Below, in pieces: positions 11,284 through 15,456 of a stretch of 46,020 nucleotides of DNA (position 1 is the stretch's first letter; each line of letters begins with the position of its first letter). Location: assembly GCA_013003065.1 (NCBI GenBank), contig JABDLI010000069.1, positions 1 through 46,020 of the forward strand, given 5' to 3'. A program made the translations under genes and the position numbers. The notes beneath the pieces were generated by a model that did no database searches, was not told where the DNA came from, and saw only the letters and a list, made by a program, of their open reading frames with translations. This stretch comes from Phycisphaerales bacterium. GTDB taxonomy: Bacteria > Planctomycetota > Phycisphaerae > Phycisphaerales > SM1A02.

Positions 11284-12108
11284 ATGGGTGCTCTCACCAT
11301 CGCCTTTCTCGGGGACATCTTCGCCGCTCCCGGGCGACGCGTGGTGGCCCAGCAATTGCCCAACCTCCGAGCCGATCATCAGCCGGACATCGTGATCGCG
11401 AACGCCGAGAACGCCGCACGCGGGCTCGGCTGCTCCCCGTCGCTGTACACCAAGTTCCGGGCCATGGGCATCGACGCCATCACGCTGGGCGACCACGTCT
11501 ACCGCGATGCGTCGATCGCGGAAATCCTGCAACGTCCGGATGAGCCGATCGCGCGCCCCGCAAACCTCCCGGACGCGGCCGTAGGTCGCGCGTACACGCG
11601 GATTCCGCCCGGGGAGGGGCACACCAAGAGCGTCTTCGTGATCACCGTGCTGGGGCGGGTGTTCCTGAACCTGCCCGCCGACAGCCCCTTCCAGGCGGTC
11701 GATCGCGTTCTGACGGGGTTACCGGAAATCGATCCCATCGTGATCGTCGAAGCGCACATGGAGGCGACGAGCGAGAAGGCCGCGCTCGCGCATTACCTGG
11801 ACGGCCGGGTCGCCGCCGTCATCGGAACGCACACCCACGTGCCGACCGCCGATGCCCGCATCCTCTCCGGGGGAACGGCGTTCATCACGGACGTCGGCAT
11901 GTGCGGGCCGTACGACTCGGTGATCGGACGTGACAAGACGGCAGTCGTCCACCACATGTCCACAGGCATGTACGCACCGTTCGGCATCGGACGGGGGGCG
12001 GAGGCGATGTGCGGCGTTCTGGTCGAGGTCGAGGAGCACACCGGGCGAGCTCGACGCGTGCAGCGTCTGGAGTACGCCGCCGACCCCGATCAGCCGCCCT
12101 TCGCCTGA
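11284..12108 (+). CDS. ymdB: YmdB-family 2',3'-cyclic nucleotide phosphodiesterase
   Basis: 274 aa, metallophosphoesterase of the TIGR00282/YmdB family, which hydrolyses cyclic nucleotides such as 2',3'-cAMP with a di-metal centre and affects the switch between motility and biofilm in Bacillus. The metal-site motifs align one by one: GDIF (D11), NAENAARG (E42, N43), GDHV (D70, H71), EAHMEATSEK (H158) and GTHTHVPTAD (H183, H185). The family normally has Asn at the position of D70 (GNH), so one ligand is changed. The ATG at 11284 gives the expected first strand and a length close to the family's ~264 aa; upstream open frame to 9655 is not coding. Reads divergently from the DUF3553 gene. Confidence 0.88.
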   Translation: MGALTIAFLGDIFAAPGRRVVAQQLPNLRADHQPDIVIANAENAARGLGCSPSLYTKFRAMGIDAITLGDHVYRDASIAEILQRPDEPIARPANLPDAAVGRAYTRIPPGEGHTKSVFVITVLGRVFLNLPADSPFQAVDRVLTGLPEIDPIVIVEAHMEATSEKAALAHYLDGRVAAVIGTHTHVPTADARILSGGTAFITDVGMCGPYDSVIGRDKTAVVHHMSTGMYAPFGIGRGAEAMCGVLVEVEEHTGRARRVQRLEYAADPDQPPFA

Positions 12109-12566
12109 CCCGAAGGGCTGTGAAGATGGAGAAGATGACCAGTGCGGAAAACAAGGCGATTTGTATGCCTCCCCCGATTTGTAGCTTTTTGTCTGGTTGT
12201 TCGAGCTAGGTGGTTGACGCCGCAGCGATTGTGGTGTCGCATAGAGGTGAGCGGCGGGGCTCGTCCCGGTCGTTCTTGATCGAAGAGAGAGAAGAAGAAG
12301 AGAAGAGAGCCCACGTCAGCGTCAACTGATCGACAGGTCCATCCGGGTTGATGATTGTGCATCGTCGCTGAGACGATGCGCGACGCCAATCGCTGACCCC
12401 ATGCGTCGTTCGACCGCGTCAGACGAGTACCGGCTCAACCGAGCTCTCTCCAGATCTGCTTGTGCAAACGCGTATGCGGCGTTCGACGTCGTGTGCGCAC
12501 GGGGGCGATTCAGCGGGTCTCTTCCCGACCACGGGGCCGGGCGGAGAGAAGAGAGAGAATTCTTCC
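12109..12566. other. Long leader/intergenic region upstream of sigma-54 activator
   Basis: 458 bp, locally richer in A+T than its surroundings. Seen: a 27-codon reading frame 12126-12209 (MEKMTSAENK...) without clear support; a 9-bp direct repeat CGATTTGTA at 12157-12165 and 12175-12183; a TTGACG hexamer at 12214-12219; a TGTCGCA half-site at 12235-12241, the same motif found in the palindromes at 13638-13728; a purine tract at about 12280-12308; and a perfect hairpin at 12359-12379. This looks regulatory and could hold the activator's promoter or a small RNA, but none of it is proven. Confidence 0.45.
12359..12379. promoter_or_regulatory. Perfect 8-bp stem-loop in activator leader
   Basis: GCATCGTC at 12359-12366 and GACGATGC at 12372-12379 are perfect complements with the 5-nt loop GCTGA. 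There is no T-run after it, so it is unlikely to terminate transcription of the upstream phosphodiesterase gene. It lies about 190 bp before the activator start codon and may be an operator or a leader RNA hairpin. Confidence 0.4.
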
Positions 12567-12590
12567 ATGGCCGGAGAGAAGAGAGAGAGA
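12524..12590 (-). repeat. Inverted copies of the pyrimidine-tract/hairpin repeat
   Basis: Read on the minus strand this has the same order as the tandem units at 14404-14676: CTCTCTCTTCTCTCCG (minus strand of 12543-12558), followed by a hairpin with arms at 12524-12530 and 12535-12541 (CCCGACC / GGCCGGG) around a 4-nt loop. A second purine-rich core, GGAGAGAAGAGAGAG, is at 12572-12586. The repeat covers the start codon and the first residues of the sigma-54 activator. Confidence 0.65.
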
Positions 12591-13559
12591 GGCACGGCCC
12601 CCAAGCCATCGACGGCGACGGGGTCGGCGCGAATCGGCGAGATCGGACGCGCGGAAGAGCGGTCGTCGGCCTTTGGCCAGCTGGCTCAACGCGCTGCACG
12701 ATCGAGCTGCACGATCCTCGTGACGGGTGAGACCGGCGTCGGCAAGGGGCACCTTGCCAAGGAGCTTCACCGGGAGAGCCCACGCGGTGACGCCCCCTTC
12801 GTGCCGGTCAACTGCGGCGCGATTCCGGAGAGCATCATCGACAGTCAGCTCTTTGGTCACGCACAAGGGGCATTCAGCGGAGCAACGAAGGACCACGTCG
12901 GGCTCGTTCGGGCCGCCGAGGGTGGCACGCTGTTCCTGGACGAGGTCGGTGAGCTGCCCGCCTCGGCGCAGACCCGCTTGCTGCGGCTGCTCCAGGATCG
13001 CGAGGTGCAGCCCGTGGGCCACGCCCGTCCGCTGACGGTCGACGTGCGCATCATCGCGGCGACCAACCGCGACCTGCGGGAGGCGGTGGAGCAGCGGGCC
13101 TTCCGCGAGGATCTGCTGTTCCGGCTCGACGTCGTCCGGATCCACGTGCCACCGCTGCGTGAACGTGCAGCCGAGCTGGACGCGTTGCTGGACCAGTTCA
13201 ACCGCGAGTTTGCGGAGCTCTACCGCCAGCAGACGCTCGAGTTCGATCCCGCGGCGCGGGAGCGTATCCACGCCTACCGCTGGCCCGGCAACATCAGGCA
13301 GCTCCGCACGCTGGTCGAGCGCCTCCACGTCCTCTGCCCCGACGAACCGGTGACGATCGATCGCCTCGCGGAGGTCGGTCACGCCGCCGAACCCGCTCCA
13401 GGAGCGGCTCGCTCGCTGGACGAGGTGCGATACGAGGAGGTCATCCGCGTGCTCGGCGACAACGGCGGCTCCGTGGCCGCGGTCGCCGCCGTCTTCGGCG
13501 TCCACCGCAGCACGATCTACCGCTGGCTCCAGGGCCGCCGCCCGACCAACCAGCCGTAG
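12567..13559 (+). CDS. Sigma-54-dependent transcriptional activator, PspF-like
   Basis: 330 aa from ATG 12567. It is an AAA+ enhancer-binding protein that would remodel the closed RNA polymerase-sigma-54 complex by ATP hydrolysis. Walker A GETGVGKG is at 54-61, the sigma-54 contact loop GAFSGA (variant of GAFTGA) at 101-106, and Walker B TLFLDEVGEL with D125-E126; arginine-finger region FREDLLFRLDVVRIHVPPLR follows. A Fis-type helix-turn-helix closes the protein (VAAVFGVHRSTIYRWLQ). There is no receiver, GAF or PAS domain, so it resembles PspF, whose activity is held by a partner protein. A 35-residue longer start at 12462 is possible. The start region is made of purine-rich repeat, giving the odd MAGEKRERG N-terminus. 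Sits just upstream of palindromic sites and a -24/-12 promoter. Confidence 0.92.
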   Translation: MAGEKRERGTAPKPSTATGSARIGEIGRAEERSSAFGQLAQRAARSSCTILVTGETGVGKGHLAKELHRESPRGDAPFVPVNCGAIPESIIDSQLFGHAQGAFSGATKDHVGLVRAAEGGTLFLDEVGELPASAQTRLLRLLQDREVQPVGHARPLTVDVRIIAATNRDLREAVEQRAFREDLLFRLDVVRIHVPPLRERAAELDALLDQFNREFAELYRQQTLEFDPAARERIHAYRWPGNIRQLRTLVERLHVLCPDEPVTIDRLAEVGHAAEPAPGAARSLDEVRYEEVIRVLGDNGGSVAAVAAVFGVHRSTIYRWLQGRRPTNQP

Positions 13560-13637
13560 GCCGCGGGACGCACCGCACGGGGATTTCCCGAGAAAACCAA
13601 CATTGTCCGGCACCGCAGGCTCCCCCGGGAGCCTGCT

Positions 13638-13655
13638 TGTCGTATGCATGCGACA
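13638..13655. promoter_or_regulatory. Candidate activator-binding palindrome (UAS 1)
   Basis: TGTCGTATGCATGCGACA, an 18-bp palindrome with one mismatched pair. It shares the TGTCG(C/T)A half-site with the palindrome at 13713-13728. Its centre is about 197 bp upstream of the predicted start of transcription of the -24/-12 promoter, a normal distance for an enhancer site. A single half-site TGTCGCAC follows at 13660-13667. Confidence 0.65.
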
Positions 13656-13712
13656 CCACTGTCGCACACCGACGAATTCCCCCCTCCAGTGCGAATGACC
13701 GCCTGTCTCAGC

Positions 13713-13728
13713 GTCGCATCGTGCGACA
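13713..13728. promoter_or_regulatory. Candidate activator-binding palindrome (UAS 2)
   Basis: GTCGCATCGTGCGACA: arms GTCGCA and TGCGAC are perfect complements around TCG. Its centre is about 124 bp upstream of the predicted transcription start and about 73-74 bp from the centre of UAS 1, close to seven helical turns, so two bound dimers could lie on the same face. The upstream activator gene is the natural candidate for binding. Confidence 0.65.
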
Positions 13729-13817
13729 GACGGAGCGGGATCGCGGCCCCGACCCCGTCTCGTCGTGTCGGTAAACCGGCTTTCCGCATCGACAGGGCCG
13801 TCGCCGCCCCCCGGGGG

Positions 13818-13833
13818 TGGCACGGTCTTTGTT
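13818..13833 (+). promoter_or_regulatory. Sigma-54 (-24/-12) promoter
   Basis: TGGCACGGTCTTTGTT. The sigma-54 consensus is TGGCACG, four bases, then TTGCA/T; this matches the whole -24 block and TTG-T of the -12 block, with T for C at -12. GG at 13819-13820 and GT at 13831-13832 have the right spacing. Transcription would start near 13844, just before the ATG at 13849, giving an almost leaderless message. It follows the sigma-54 activator gene by 258 bp. Confidence 0.8.
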
Positions 13834-13848
13834 TATCCCCTCTTCGTC

Positions 13849-14340
13849 ATGCCAGTCTGCGGAGAGTTCATCACGGTCGTCATCGGGGGCAGTCGCCCGG
13901 CCGAGTCCCTTCGCCGGTCCCTGCAGCGAGCCGGGGCGCCCAACCTGGGCGTCACCGGGCACCTGCGTGGGCTTCGTCGCGGTCTCGTCGCCGGCCAGGG
14001 CCCCGTCGTGGTGTGCGTCGCCCTCGACCAACCCACGCTCACCCGTCACGCGACCGAGCTGCGGCGGCTCCTCGCGGATCTGCAGCAGTTCCCCTGCGTC
14101 GTCGGGAGTGTCGGGCTGCTCGGCGCGGATGGCTTGACGGCGGAAGCGGCGGCGGTGGGGTGCGACGTCTATGCCAGCTCCGTCGCCGAGGCGACGGGAG
14201 CCCTCCGGCACTTGCGGGAGACCAACGGTGAACGCGGTGGCGTGTGGATGAACCGCATGGCGTTGCTGGGTGACGCTTCGCGGTGGGGTCGGGTCTCGTC
14301 GTGGCATGCGGCGGGACGCGGTGACGACGACCGGGCATGA
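13849..14340 (+). CDS. Receiver-like small protein, probably sigma-54 controlled
   Basis: 163 aa from ATG 13849. The frame is open back to a GTG at 13765, but the -24/-12 promoter at 13818 makes the later start likely, with a leader of only about 5 nt and no ribosome site. Third codon positions are strongly G/C, as in its neighbours. Alternating strands and helices (FITVVIGGS, PVVVCVALDQP, FPCVVGSVG, DVYASSV) suggest a CheY-like fold; the D in ALDQP could be the phospho-acceptor position, but the conserved Lys after strand 5 is missing. The C-terminal ~35 residues are Trp/Arg/Gly-rich and unrecognised. Function unknown; it could be the partner or target of the adjacent activator. Confidence 0.6.
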   Translation: MPVCGEFITVVIGGSRPAESLRRSLQRAGAPNLGVTGHLRGLRRGLVAGQGPVVVCVALDQPTLTRHATELRRLLADLQQFPCVVGSVGLLGADGLTAEAAAVGCDVYASSVAEATGALRHLRETNGERGGVWMNRMALLGDASRWGRVSSWHAAGRGDDDRA

Positions 14341-14403
14341 GGTCGTCCTGAACCGCCTCGGGCCAACCGGCTCGAACGCGGCGTTGGGAGGGTGAATCCC
14401 TCC

Positions 14404-14676
14404 GACAAGCTCTCTCTCTTCTCTCCGCGCCGTGCCGGCGGGTACGGCGTGGAATTTGGGGAACGCAGGTTCCCGACAAGCTCTCTCTCTTCTCTCCGCG
14501 TCGTGCCGGCGGGCACGACGTGGAACTTTGGGAACGCGGGTTCCCGGCAAGCTCTCTCTCTTCTCTCCGCGTCGTGCCGCAAGGTGCGGCGTGGAATTCT
14601 CGCCTCCGGCTCCGCCGCGGCGCCCAAACTCTCTCTCCCTCTTCTTTCCACACCGCACCTGATCGGTACGGTGTGG
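14404..14676 (+). repeat. Tandem array of pyrimidine-tract plus hairpin units
   Basis: Three units with a 71-bp period begin at 14404, 14475 and 14546; a fourth, diverged unit has its hairpin at 14648-14676. Each has the tract CTCTCTCTTCTCTCC, then a 9-bp stem with a 4-nt loop (14428-14449, 14499-14520, 14570-14591), then GTGGAA. Units 1 and 2 have a second hairpin GGGAAC / GTTCCC (14459-14474, 14530-14545). The first stem differs in sequence between units but stays paired, mostly by complementary changes or G-T wobble. Reading frames across it on either strand are repetitive and not credible proteins. It lies between the receiver-like gene and the PEP-CTERM-like gene. Confidence 0.8.
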
Positions 14677-14874
14677 AATTGCGCGCCGTTCGCTCGGATC
14701 CGTGGGTCGGCGTCGGAACGTTCGTCCGAAAACTCGCCCAGCCGGCGCAGACCGAACTGCCCGTTCCCGGACTGCGTCCGGCGAGTTGCGGCGCGTTGAC
14801 TCACGCGACGCCGGCGGCACGCTGCAAGCAGGGCCGCGCGGCGGCCGCGGACGAGAGCCACAGAGAGAGACAAC
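14677..14874. other. Leader of PEP-CTERM-like gene
   Basis: About 200 bp after the tandem repeats in which I see no gene, strong promoter or repeat. A GAGAGAGA purine tract just before ATG 14875 is the only candidate ribosome-binding sequence. Confidence 0.4.
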
Positions 14875-15456
14875 ATGGCGACAAAGCACATGCGTCGAGC
14901 CCTGCCGGGGCTCTGCCTCGCGCTGACGACGCCGGTCATGGCGACGGGCGACACCACCGTGACCGAGTGGATGCCGCTCGGGAGCGAGCTGCTGGGACCG
15001 GGCGAGTCGATGGACGACGACTTTCTCGTCACCAATGAAGAAGGTGACGTGCTCGGCTTCGAGGTTCGGTTCGACTACGACGAGCCGATTTCCGACACAA
15101 GCTGGGCCTCCGACGTGCAGGTGGTCGTGGACGGCCCGGGCGGCGAGCGTTTCACGGTCGGCGGCTTCACCAACATCGACGACGCCGATGCGCTCTGGTC
15201 GTTCGACGGCCCGGGCTCCGATGGTCCCGGCCGCTACGGCGATTCGGGCAACGACATCTTCCTGCCCTGGCAGGCCACGCCGATCGCAGCCGGCACGTTC
15301 CACGTCACGTTCACCAACGACTGGTTCGGCGACGAGAACCCGAACGAGTACGACAGCGTCTCGATCCGCTTCTACCAGACGATCCCCGCCCCCGGCGTGG
15401 CGGCCGTGTTCGCGGCCGGCGTGGTGATCGCGCGCCGGCGCCGCCGATCGCGCTGA
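14875..15456 (+). CDS. Exported protein with PEP-CTERM-like sorting tail
   Basis: 193 aa. An N-terminal signal peptide (RRALPGLCLALTTPVMATG) is followed by an Asp/Gly-rich beta-sandwich-like region with many aromatic residues. The C-terminus IPAPGVAAVFAAGVVIARR, followed by further Arg residues, has the three parts of a PEP-CTERM signal: a short Pro motif (here PAP), a hydrophobic helix and a basic tail. Such proteins are cleaved and sorted by exosortase (EpsH/XrtA-type) and often belong to the envelope or extracellular matrix. No exosortase gene is in the window. A second in-frame ATG is at 14890. Only 13 bp separate it from the convergent dehydrogenase gene. Confidence 0.8.
   Translation: MATKHMRRALPGLCLALTTPVMATGDTTVTEWMPLGSELLGPGESMDDDFLVTNEEGDVLGFEVRFDYDEPISDTSWASDVQVVVDGPGGERFTVGGFTNIDDADALWSFDGPGSDGPGRYGDSGNDIFLPWQATPIAAGTFHVTFTNDWFGDENPNEYDSVSIRFYQTIPAPGVAAVFAAGVVIARRRRRSR

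Follow-up and report, generated by a model that had tools for sequence, protein, structure and literature searches.

By what means might a sigma-54 activator without a sensor domain be kept under control? The question is raised by a locus within the window, i.e. the whole 46,020-nucleotide stretch of DNA analysed here (contig C77 of a 4.57 Mb draft genome in 385 contigs, ~94% complete), in which an activator gene is followed by a sigma-54 promoter and the gene for a small protein. The known receiver-less activators are restrained by partners, as PspF is by the protein PspA, and the original prediction proposed a self-contained switch in which the receiver-like downstream protein could be such a partner. 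All elements named in that prediction were found where they had been placed: the sigma-54 unit, the conserved gene pair and the receiver fold stand, while a noncoding RNA array 3' of the second gene had been overlooked. The analysis is computational throughout; what it shows directly is which parts are present, how far they are conserved, how the RNA is structured, and that seed and target are complementary and co-vary. The protein-coding and promoter features are:

12214-12244, + strand: predicted activator promoter, TTGACG-N17-TCGCAT, in which the -10 element shares bases with a TGTCGCA half-site
12567-13559, + strand: sigma-54 enhancer-binding protein (EBP) without a sensor domain, 330 aa, GAFSGA motif
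13638-13655, no strand assigned: enhancer palindrome 1, TGTCGTATGCATGCGACA (consensus TGTCGCA-N4-TGCGACA)
13660: additional half-site
13712-13728, no strand assigned: enhancer palindrome 2, CGTCGCATCGTGCGACA
13818-13833, + strand: sigma-54 -24/-12 promoter, TGGCACGGTCTTTGTT, kept in 12 of 13 genomes
13849-14340, + strand: degenerate receiver-like protein of 163 aa, with a predicted nearly leaderless mRNA

The activator possesses the AAA+ domain, GAFTGA-type motif and C-terminal helix-turn-helix of bacterial EBPs (Sigma54_activat, PF00158, E 4.4e-63, with an AAA lid), and only ~30 residues lie N-terminal to its AAA+ domain. A sensor is absent, as predicted, while the proposed likeness to PspF is one of architecture only, the protein scoring 222 bits against the PspF family model (TIGR02974, NCBIfam), below the cut-off of 443.55. 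The source genome encodes nine strong sigma-54 activator domains and a single rpoN, in keeping with the predicted use of sigma-54.

Both predicted TGTCGCA palindromes are present, at approximately -198 and -125 from the predicted transcription start near 13844, as is the sigma-54 promoter, the -12 doublet of which is GT rather than GC; the promoters of relatives read TGGCACGCCAGTTGCA and similar. Half-sites and promoter elements are also far commoner than in shuffled sequence: in the intergenic regions of 13 same-family genomes, exact TGTCGCA/TGCGACA half-sites number 24 where 0.92 would be expected, and -24/-12 sites number 12 where 0.06 would be, with the half-sites clustering at about -160 and -90 relative to the -24 element. 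In one genome (G020), the activator has GAIEGA instead of the GAFTGA motif and no -24/-12 site is present in the promoter, a joint loss that is expected if the activator drives the promoter via sigma-54. Within the source genome, exact TGTCGCA-N2-6-TGCGACA palindromes were not found and a one-mismatch search returned the known site only, so that no second activator target was identified. The promoter of the activator itself may also be under its control. A TTGACG/T-N17 promoter was found at 12 of 14 EBP loci, and TGTCGCATAG over its -10 element is exact at seven of the 14 and also at L130 and L134, being replaced by TGCTAT or TGGGGT at three loci without an EBP (L125, L138 and L142); this distribution hints that the activator may autoregulate its own transcription.

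Similar arrangements were observed elsewhere. In G036 (C204, around 10079; L083/L046), a receiver-like ORF with a -24/-12 site and a TGTCGC...GCGACA box stands behind an NtrC-type response regulator; this unit was rejected as a family member, its layout being similar without detectable homology to the 163-aa family. Likewise rejected as a relative, with detectable homology absent, was a unit from the same order (L122 in G418, reverse strand), where an EBP is followed by a -24/-12 promoter with a 122-aa ORF and, further on, by several secreted proteins with sorting-type C termini and near-identical sigma-54 promoters (TTGGCGYGGGGTTTGCAACACAGTCTCTCTCTTCTCTCTC), in which a CU tract lies exactly at the expected transcription start. 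Additionally, a perfect TGTCGCA-N4-TGCGACA palindrome in G020 (C251, about 200-650; L051/L084) is followed by GA-rich hairpin loops and a possible small RNA that ends in a strong terminator.

The 163-aa protein was surveyed in 61 related genomes. It is paired with the EBP in 13 of 13 same-family genomes with an EBP and readable sequence (the target region of G031 reads N and falls outside the readable loci), and at three further unit loci from a separate collection, GTDB (L130, L134 and L136). The expectation that homologues always follow a receiver-less activator was borne out, all strong matches (E < 1e-4) lying directly behind an orthologue of the activator. The ATG at 13849 is placed some 5 nt past the predicted transcription start (~13844), in agreement with the original prediction, and the start codon lies 29-34 nt past the promoter TGG in nearly all genomes, which suggests that the nearly leaderless mRNA is itself conserved. 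The structure model displays the order b1a1b2a2b3a3b4a4b5a5 (pLDDT about 90 over residues 10-120), i.e. the (beta-alpha)5 fold of receiver (REC) domains, and its best PDB structure matches are mostly receivers, at a moderate level (E 2.4e-3, TM about 0.5). Family members share 23-42% identity with the window protein, and the REC catalytic set (acidic pair, phospho-Asp, Thr/Ser and Lys) is not conserved among them: the acidic pair after b1 and the Lys after b5 are absent, and the residue at the end of b3 is D in eight of 13 members and N, S, T or another residue in the rest. PF00072 matched no member of the family, and searches of Pfam, NCBIfam and PDB sequences with the family returned nothing significant. 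Model and alignment thus agree with the predicted receiver-like fold lacking the conserved Lys, and pseudo-receiver would be a fair description of this protein.

Feedback in such a unit is plausible, and the strongest evidence for it appears to come from the noncoding RNA array, which would lie towards the 3' end of the presumed 163-aa transcript, rather than from the protein. The array, its complementary elements and the gene that follows are:

12282-12309, + strand: GA-rich stretch of the activator leader with complementarity to the CU seed
12543-12559, + strand: GGAGAGAAGAGAGAGAA, complementary to the CU seed without mismatch, at the activator ribosome-binding site
12573-12592, + strand: second GA element, barely inside the activator reading frame (-35.6 kcal/mol)
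14403-14682: CU array, all modules
14403-14458, + strand: CU module 1, seed 14410-14426 and 13-bp hairpin (80.5 bits)
14474-14529, + strand: CU module 2, seed 14481-14497 and hairpin (78.3 bits)
14545-14600, + strand: CU module 3, seed 14552-14568 and hairpin (73.1 bits)
14626-14682, + strand: CU module 4, divergent seed CUCUCUCUCCCUCUUCUUUCC and hairpin (40 bits)
14875-15456, + strand: secreted protein whose C terminus is PEP/MYXO-CTERM-like; the ribosome-binding site of its gene is GA-rich

A module usually consists of a variable hairpin, a linker, a seed predicted to be single-stranded (CUCUCUCUCUUCUCUCC) and a 13-bp hairpin. Two to four such modules stand in tandem 3' of the 163-aa stop codon in all 12 genomes with sequence there, in every case in the sense orientation of the 163-aa gene. 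Across 23 distinct modules, the 13-bp helix is 99.3% paired, as opposed to 25-49% in slid controls, and eight of its 13 pairs show compensatory two-sided changes; none of 500 shuffles reached this level. The seed is invariant over 16 columns, set against identities of 23-42% for the target proteins and 53-66% for the EBPs; in 10 of 12 genomes the CT tract is predicted to be more open than the sequence on either side, the seed being predicted as mostly paired in G021 and G079. A T-run resembling an intrinsic terminator follows the last module in several genomes, and no clear T-run follows any module in this window, so that the array might here read through into the gene at 14875.

A covariance model recovered all modules, and its strong matches in 397 genomes of the class were confined to those with the unit. 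Similarly, an exact-match search of 84,980 genomes yielded multi-copy occurrences only in metagenome-assembled genomes of Phycisphaerae/Planctomycetota. A comparison of 12000-15000 with Rfam was empty up to E = 1, and no Rfam family, Qrr and alpha-r14 included, reached its gathering threshold in the window or in the stand-alone CU loci described below. The CU modules are a strongly supported and apparently undescribed family of RNA elements. Homology is not claimed for weak model matches across the class (E 1e-5 to 0.01); several of them, in G040, G052 and G389, comprise a CU tract with a hairpin or terminator, and others look chance-like. Putative stand-alone small RNAs with a CUCUCUCUCUCUUCCC seed and a T-rich terminator were observed in G040 and G052 (L115, L117 and L118), G052 having two in tandem about 210 nt apart.

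The EBP leader and ribosome-binding site contain GGAGAGAAGAGAGAG, to which the seed is complementary at every base. Within the source genome, GGAGAGAAGAGAGAG occurs with 0 mismatches at this locus only, twice in the activator leader/start region and three times in the array. At the activator start region, the calculated seed duplex (-32.6 kcal/mol) lies below those of all 83 other start regions that served as background (mean -12.3, sd 3.9 kcal/mol), and across the family the best duplex of a seed with the EBP leader of its own genome ranges from -21.5 to -35.6 kcal/mol. Leader GA elements were found across the family, mostly at the start codon, G019 having no more than a weak site, and the GA tracts of G023 and G080 are not predicted to be especially open. 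The strand is fixed in all genomes, GA-sense over start regions and CT-sense in the array. Clear co-variation of seed and target is seen in one genome only (G036), where the seed (...CUUUUGCUCC) and the EBP site (GGAGCAAGAGAGAGA) have changed together and the genome's own pairing reaches -32.1 kcal/mol, compared with -25.7 to -29.8 kcal/mol for the seeds of other genomes on the same leader. A GA-rich tract beside a start codon also works as a ribosome-binding site. The start region of the 163-aa gene carries no seed site (-9.3 kcal/mol), and this gene would thus escape the RNA. Paralogous receiver-less activators, of 51-56% identity, were also noted (L043 on G000:C158, L068, L069 and L070), some of which have GA elements in their leaders; for the leader of that on C158 the calculated duplex with the seed is -29.1 kcal/mol, and those in G003, G022 and G030 are located about 7-12 kb from the main unit.

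Modules are not restricted to loci with an activator. At L125, L138 and L142, one or more stand behind a TTGACG promoter without either an EBP or the target gene, and the L142 module adjoins a ymdB-like gene, the same neighbour as that of the unit in the window. The module thus counts as an independent RNA gene, which must act on other targets as well, and feedback on the EBP cannot be all that the modules do. The gene at 14875-15456 is possibly a target in trans or the distal gene of the transcript; it lies directly 3' of the CU array, with no clear terminator between them in this genome. Only five genes of the source genome have AGAGAGAG shortly 5' of the ATG, namely the activator, three genes for secreted PEP/MYXO-CTERM-like proteins (at 14875, on C60 and on C164) and one for another secreted protein, and the C164 family keeps its GA start site in three genomes (G000, G030 and G031). 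Among frames of at least about 150 aa behind AGAGAGAG-N-ATG in other CU-RNA genomes, 13 of 18 are PEP-CTERM-like, as are five of nine in four further CU-RNA genomes and none of seven in genomes without CU RNA; G028, at first placed in the latter set, is apparently the genome of L138, the hit coordinates being identical, has a CU RNA and was left out of this last figure. The sorting signal being short, HMM support for the PEP-CTERM-like calls is weak to moderate. As general targets, however, PEP-CTERM genes found no support in a domain-based test, which gave no difference in seed complementarity between genomes with and without CU RNA (p = 0.35); raw AGAGAGAG-N-ATG counts likewise did not differ clearly. 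Given the enrichment on the RNA side and the failed test on the protein side, the idea of a wider regulon that takes in sorted surface proteins is no more than suggestive, and constitutes a lead rather than a result.

With moderate confidence, we favour a mixed protein-RNA unit in which the EBP and sigma-54 would make an mRNA whose 3' part gives rise to an antisense RNA that represses EBP translation. The activator would bind the TGTCGCA-N4-TGCGACA enhancers and, with sigma-54, fire the -24/-12 promoter at 13818; the resulting transcript would be almost leaderless, encode the degenerate receiver and carry two to four RNA modules in its 3' part, which may act within the mRNA or as processed small RNAs. 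In the cell, the CUCUCUCUCUUCUCUCC seeds would pair with the GA-rich elements over the activator ribosome-binding site, and this pairing would lower activator translation and thereby provide negative feedback, and the seed could presumably also reach a small number of further mRNAs whose start regions are GA-rich.

The strict pairing of the two genes, the receiver-like fold devoid of catalytic residues and the precedent of partner proteins such as PspA on PspF would also suit a feedback arm made of protein alone, in which binding of the activator falls to the receiver-like protein, while the CU modules stabilise the 3' end or act as terminators and have no antisense role. We consider this unlikely, as it leaves unexplained an invariant seed of 16-17 nt with perfect complementarity to the activator start region, the co-variation in G036 and the stand-alone modules in genomes without either protein, and the receiver-like protein diverges fast (23-42% identity). 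The likeness to PspF-PspA lies in a receiver-less activator that would need another layer of control, whereas here the PspF family model is not reached and the candidate partner matches no known family. Alongside the antisense RNA, the pseudo-receiver could possibly restrain the activator as a second arm. Were the GA/CT tracts of the activator leader and array sites in DNA for a protein that binds double-stranded GAGAG repeats, an identical duplex sequence at both places would be accounted for and co-variation of the G036 type equally expected; this is very improbable in view of the strand fixed in all genomes (GA over starts, CT in the array), the compensatory changes in the neighbouring helix and the greater predicted openness of the CT tract in 10 of 12 genomes.

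The direction of control might also be the reverse, the GA elements of the activator leader titrating a CU small RNA of ancestral origin that in reality targets the mRNAs of sorted surface proteins. EBP-free stand-alone CU RNA genes, the presence of several GA elements per activator leader, the mostly PEP-CTERM-like frames after AGAGAGAG-N-ATG where a CU RNA exists (13/18, then 5/9, versus 0/7) and the one PEP-CTERM-like family (about 50% identity) whose members in G000, G030 and G031 all retain the GA start region are all consistent with this arrangement, but domain-picked PEP-CTERM genes show no difference in seed complementarity with or without CU RNA (p = 0.35) and G006, with no known CU RNA, has such genes too, and we hold it to be improbable. 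A broader proposal, possible yet rather speculative, is that a Phycisphaerae RNA family with an invariant CU seed sets, through a GA/CU address code, how strongly a regulon of exported, C-terminally sorted surface proteins and the activators in control of it are translated, being made by the sigma-54 pseudo-receiver operon or by a stand-alone gene, while the pseudo-receiver adds a second arm at the protein level.

The preferred reading, in which the modules repress EBP translation, has counterparts in known systems. Qrr RNAs control luxO mRNA by sequestration, and LuxO additionally represses its own transcription (PMC5394107). In Vibrio, as in the circuit proposed here, small RNAs under a sigma-54 activator in turn affect the mRNA of that activator; however, LuxO has a receiver domain, the Qrr genes stand apart rather than being joined to one for a receiver-like protein, and seeds and structures differ, the CU RNA having no Rfam match. 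In Rhodobacter sphaeroides, the small protein gene ccaF1 is followed by tandem small RNAs, CcsR1-4, processed from its 3' UTR (PMC8625941). On its sequence, the CU array would be of this kind, with tandem conserved modules 3' of a small protein gene and a seed complementary to ribosome-binding sites, although the likeness is one of layout and processing is here only proposed. CcaF1 is a DUF1127 RNA-binding protein, unlike the 163-aa protein, and the CcsR motif differs from the CU seed; control of CcaF1-CcsR is exerted by RpoHI/RpoHII, not sigma-54. The NfeR1/alpha-r14 (cuckoo) RNAs of Sinorhizobium carry identical anti-Shine-Dalgarno motifs beside hairpins with varying stems, and NfeR1 closes a loop on NtrBC, an NtrC-type regulator (PMC10746234). 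This repeated-seed logic on an NtrC-type regulator resembles that of the CU array, whereas NfeR1 holds three motifs (CCUCCUCCC) in one RNA, is repressed rather than activated by NtrC, and belongs to another phylum with another structure. In Proteobacteria, PrsR/PrsK ties a sigma-54 activator to PEP-CTERM surface proteins with long leaders, and regulation of PEP-CTERM-type genes outside that phylum was left open by Haft et al. 2006 (PMC1569441). PrsR differs in having a receiver and a kinase, and its DNA motif was found only in Proteobacteria; the PEP-CTERM link is here suggestive and at the RNA level.

Text searches of the open literature (subscription papers being outside their scope) returned no description of this system, and no regulatory small RNA of this kind was found described for Planctomycetota in the literature searched. 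The evidence suggests a hitherto undescribed RNA-based feedback circuit in one group of uncultured planctomycetes of the Phycisphaerae. If true, sigma-54/small-RNA feedback of the Qrr-LuxO type would have arisen separately in Planctomycetota, joined to a fast-evolving pseudo-receiver, and the circuit would offer a lead on the control of PEP-CTERM-type genes outside Proteobacteria.
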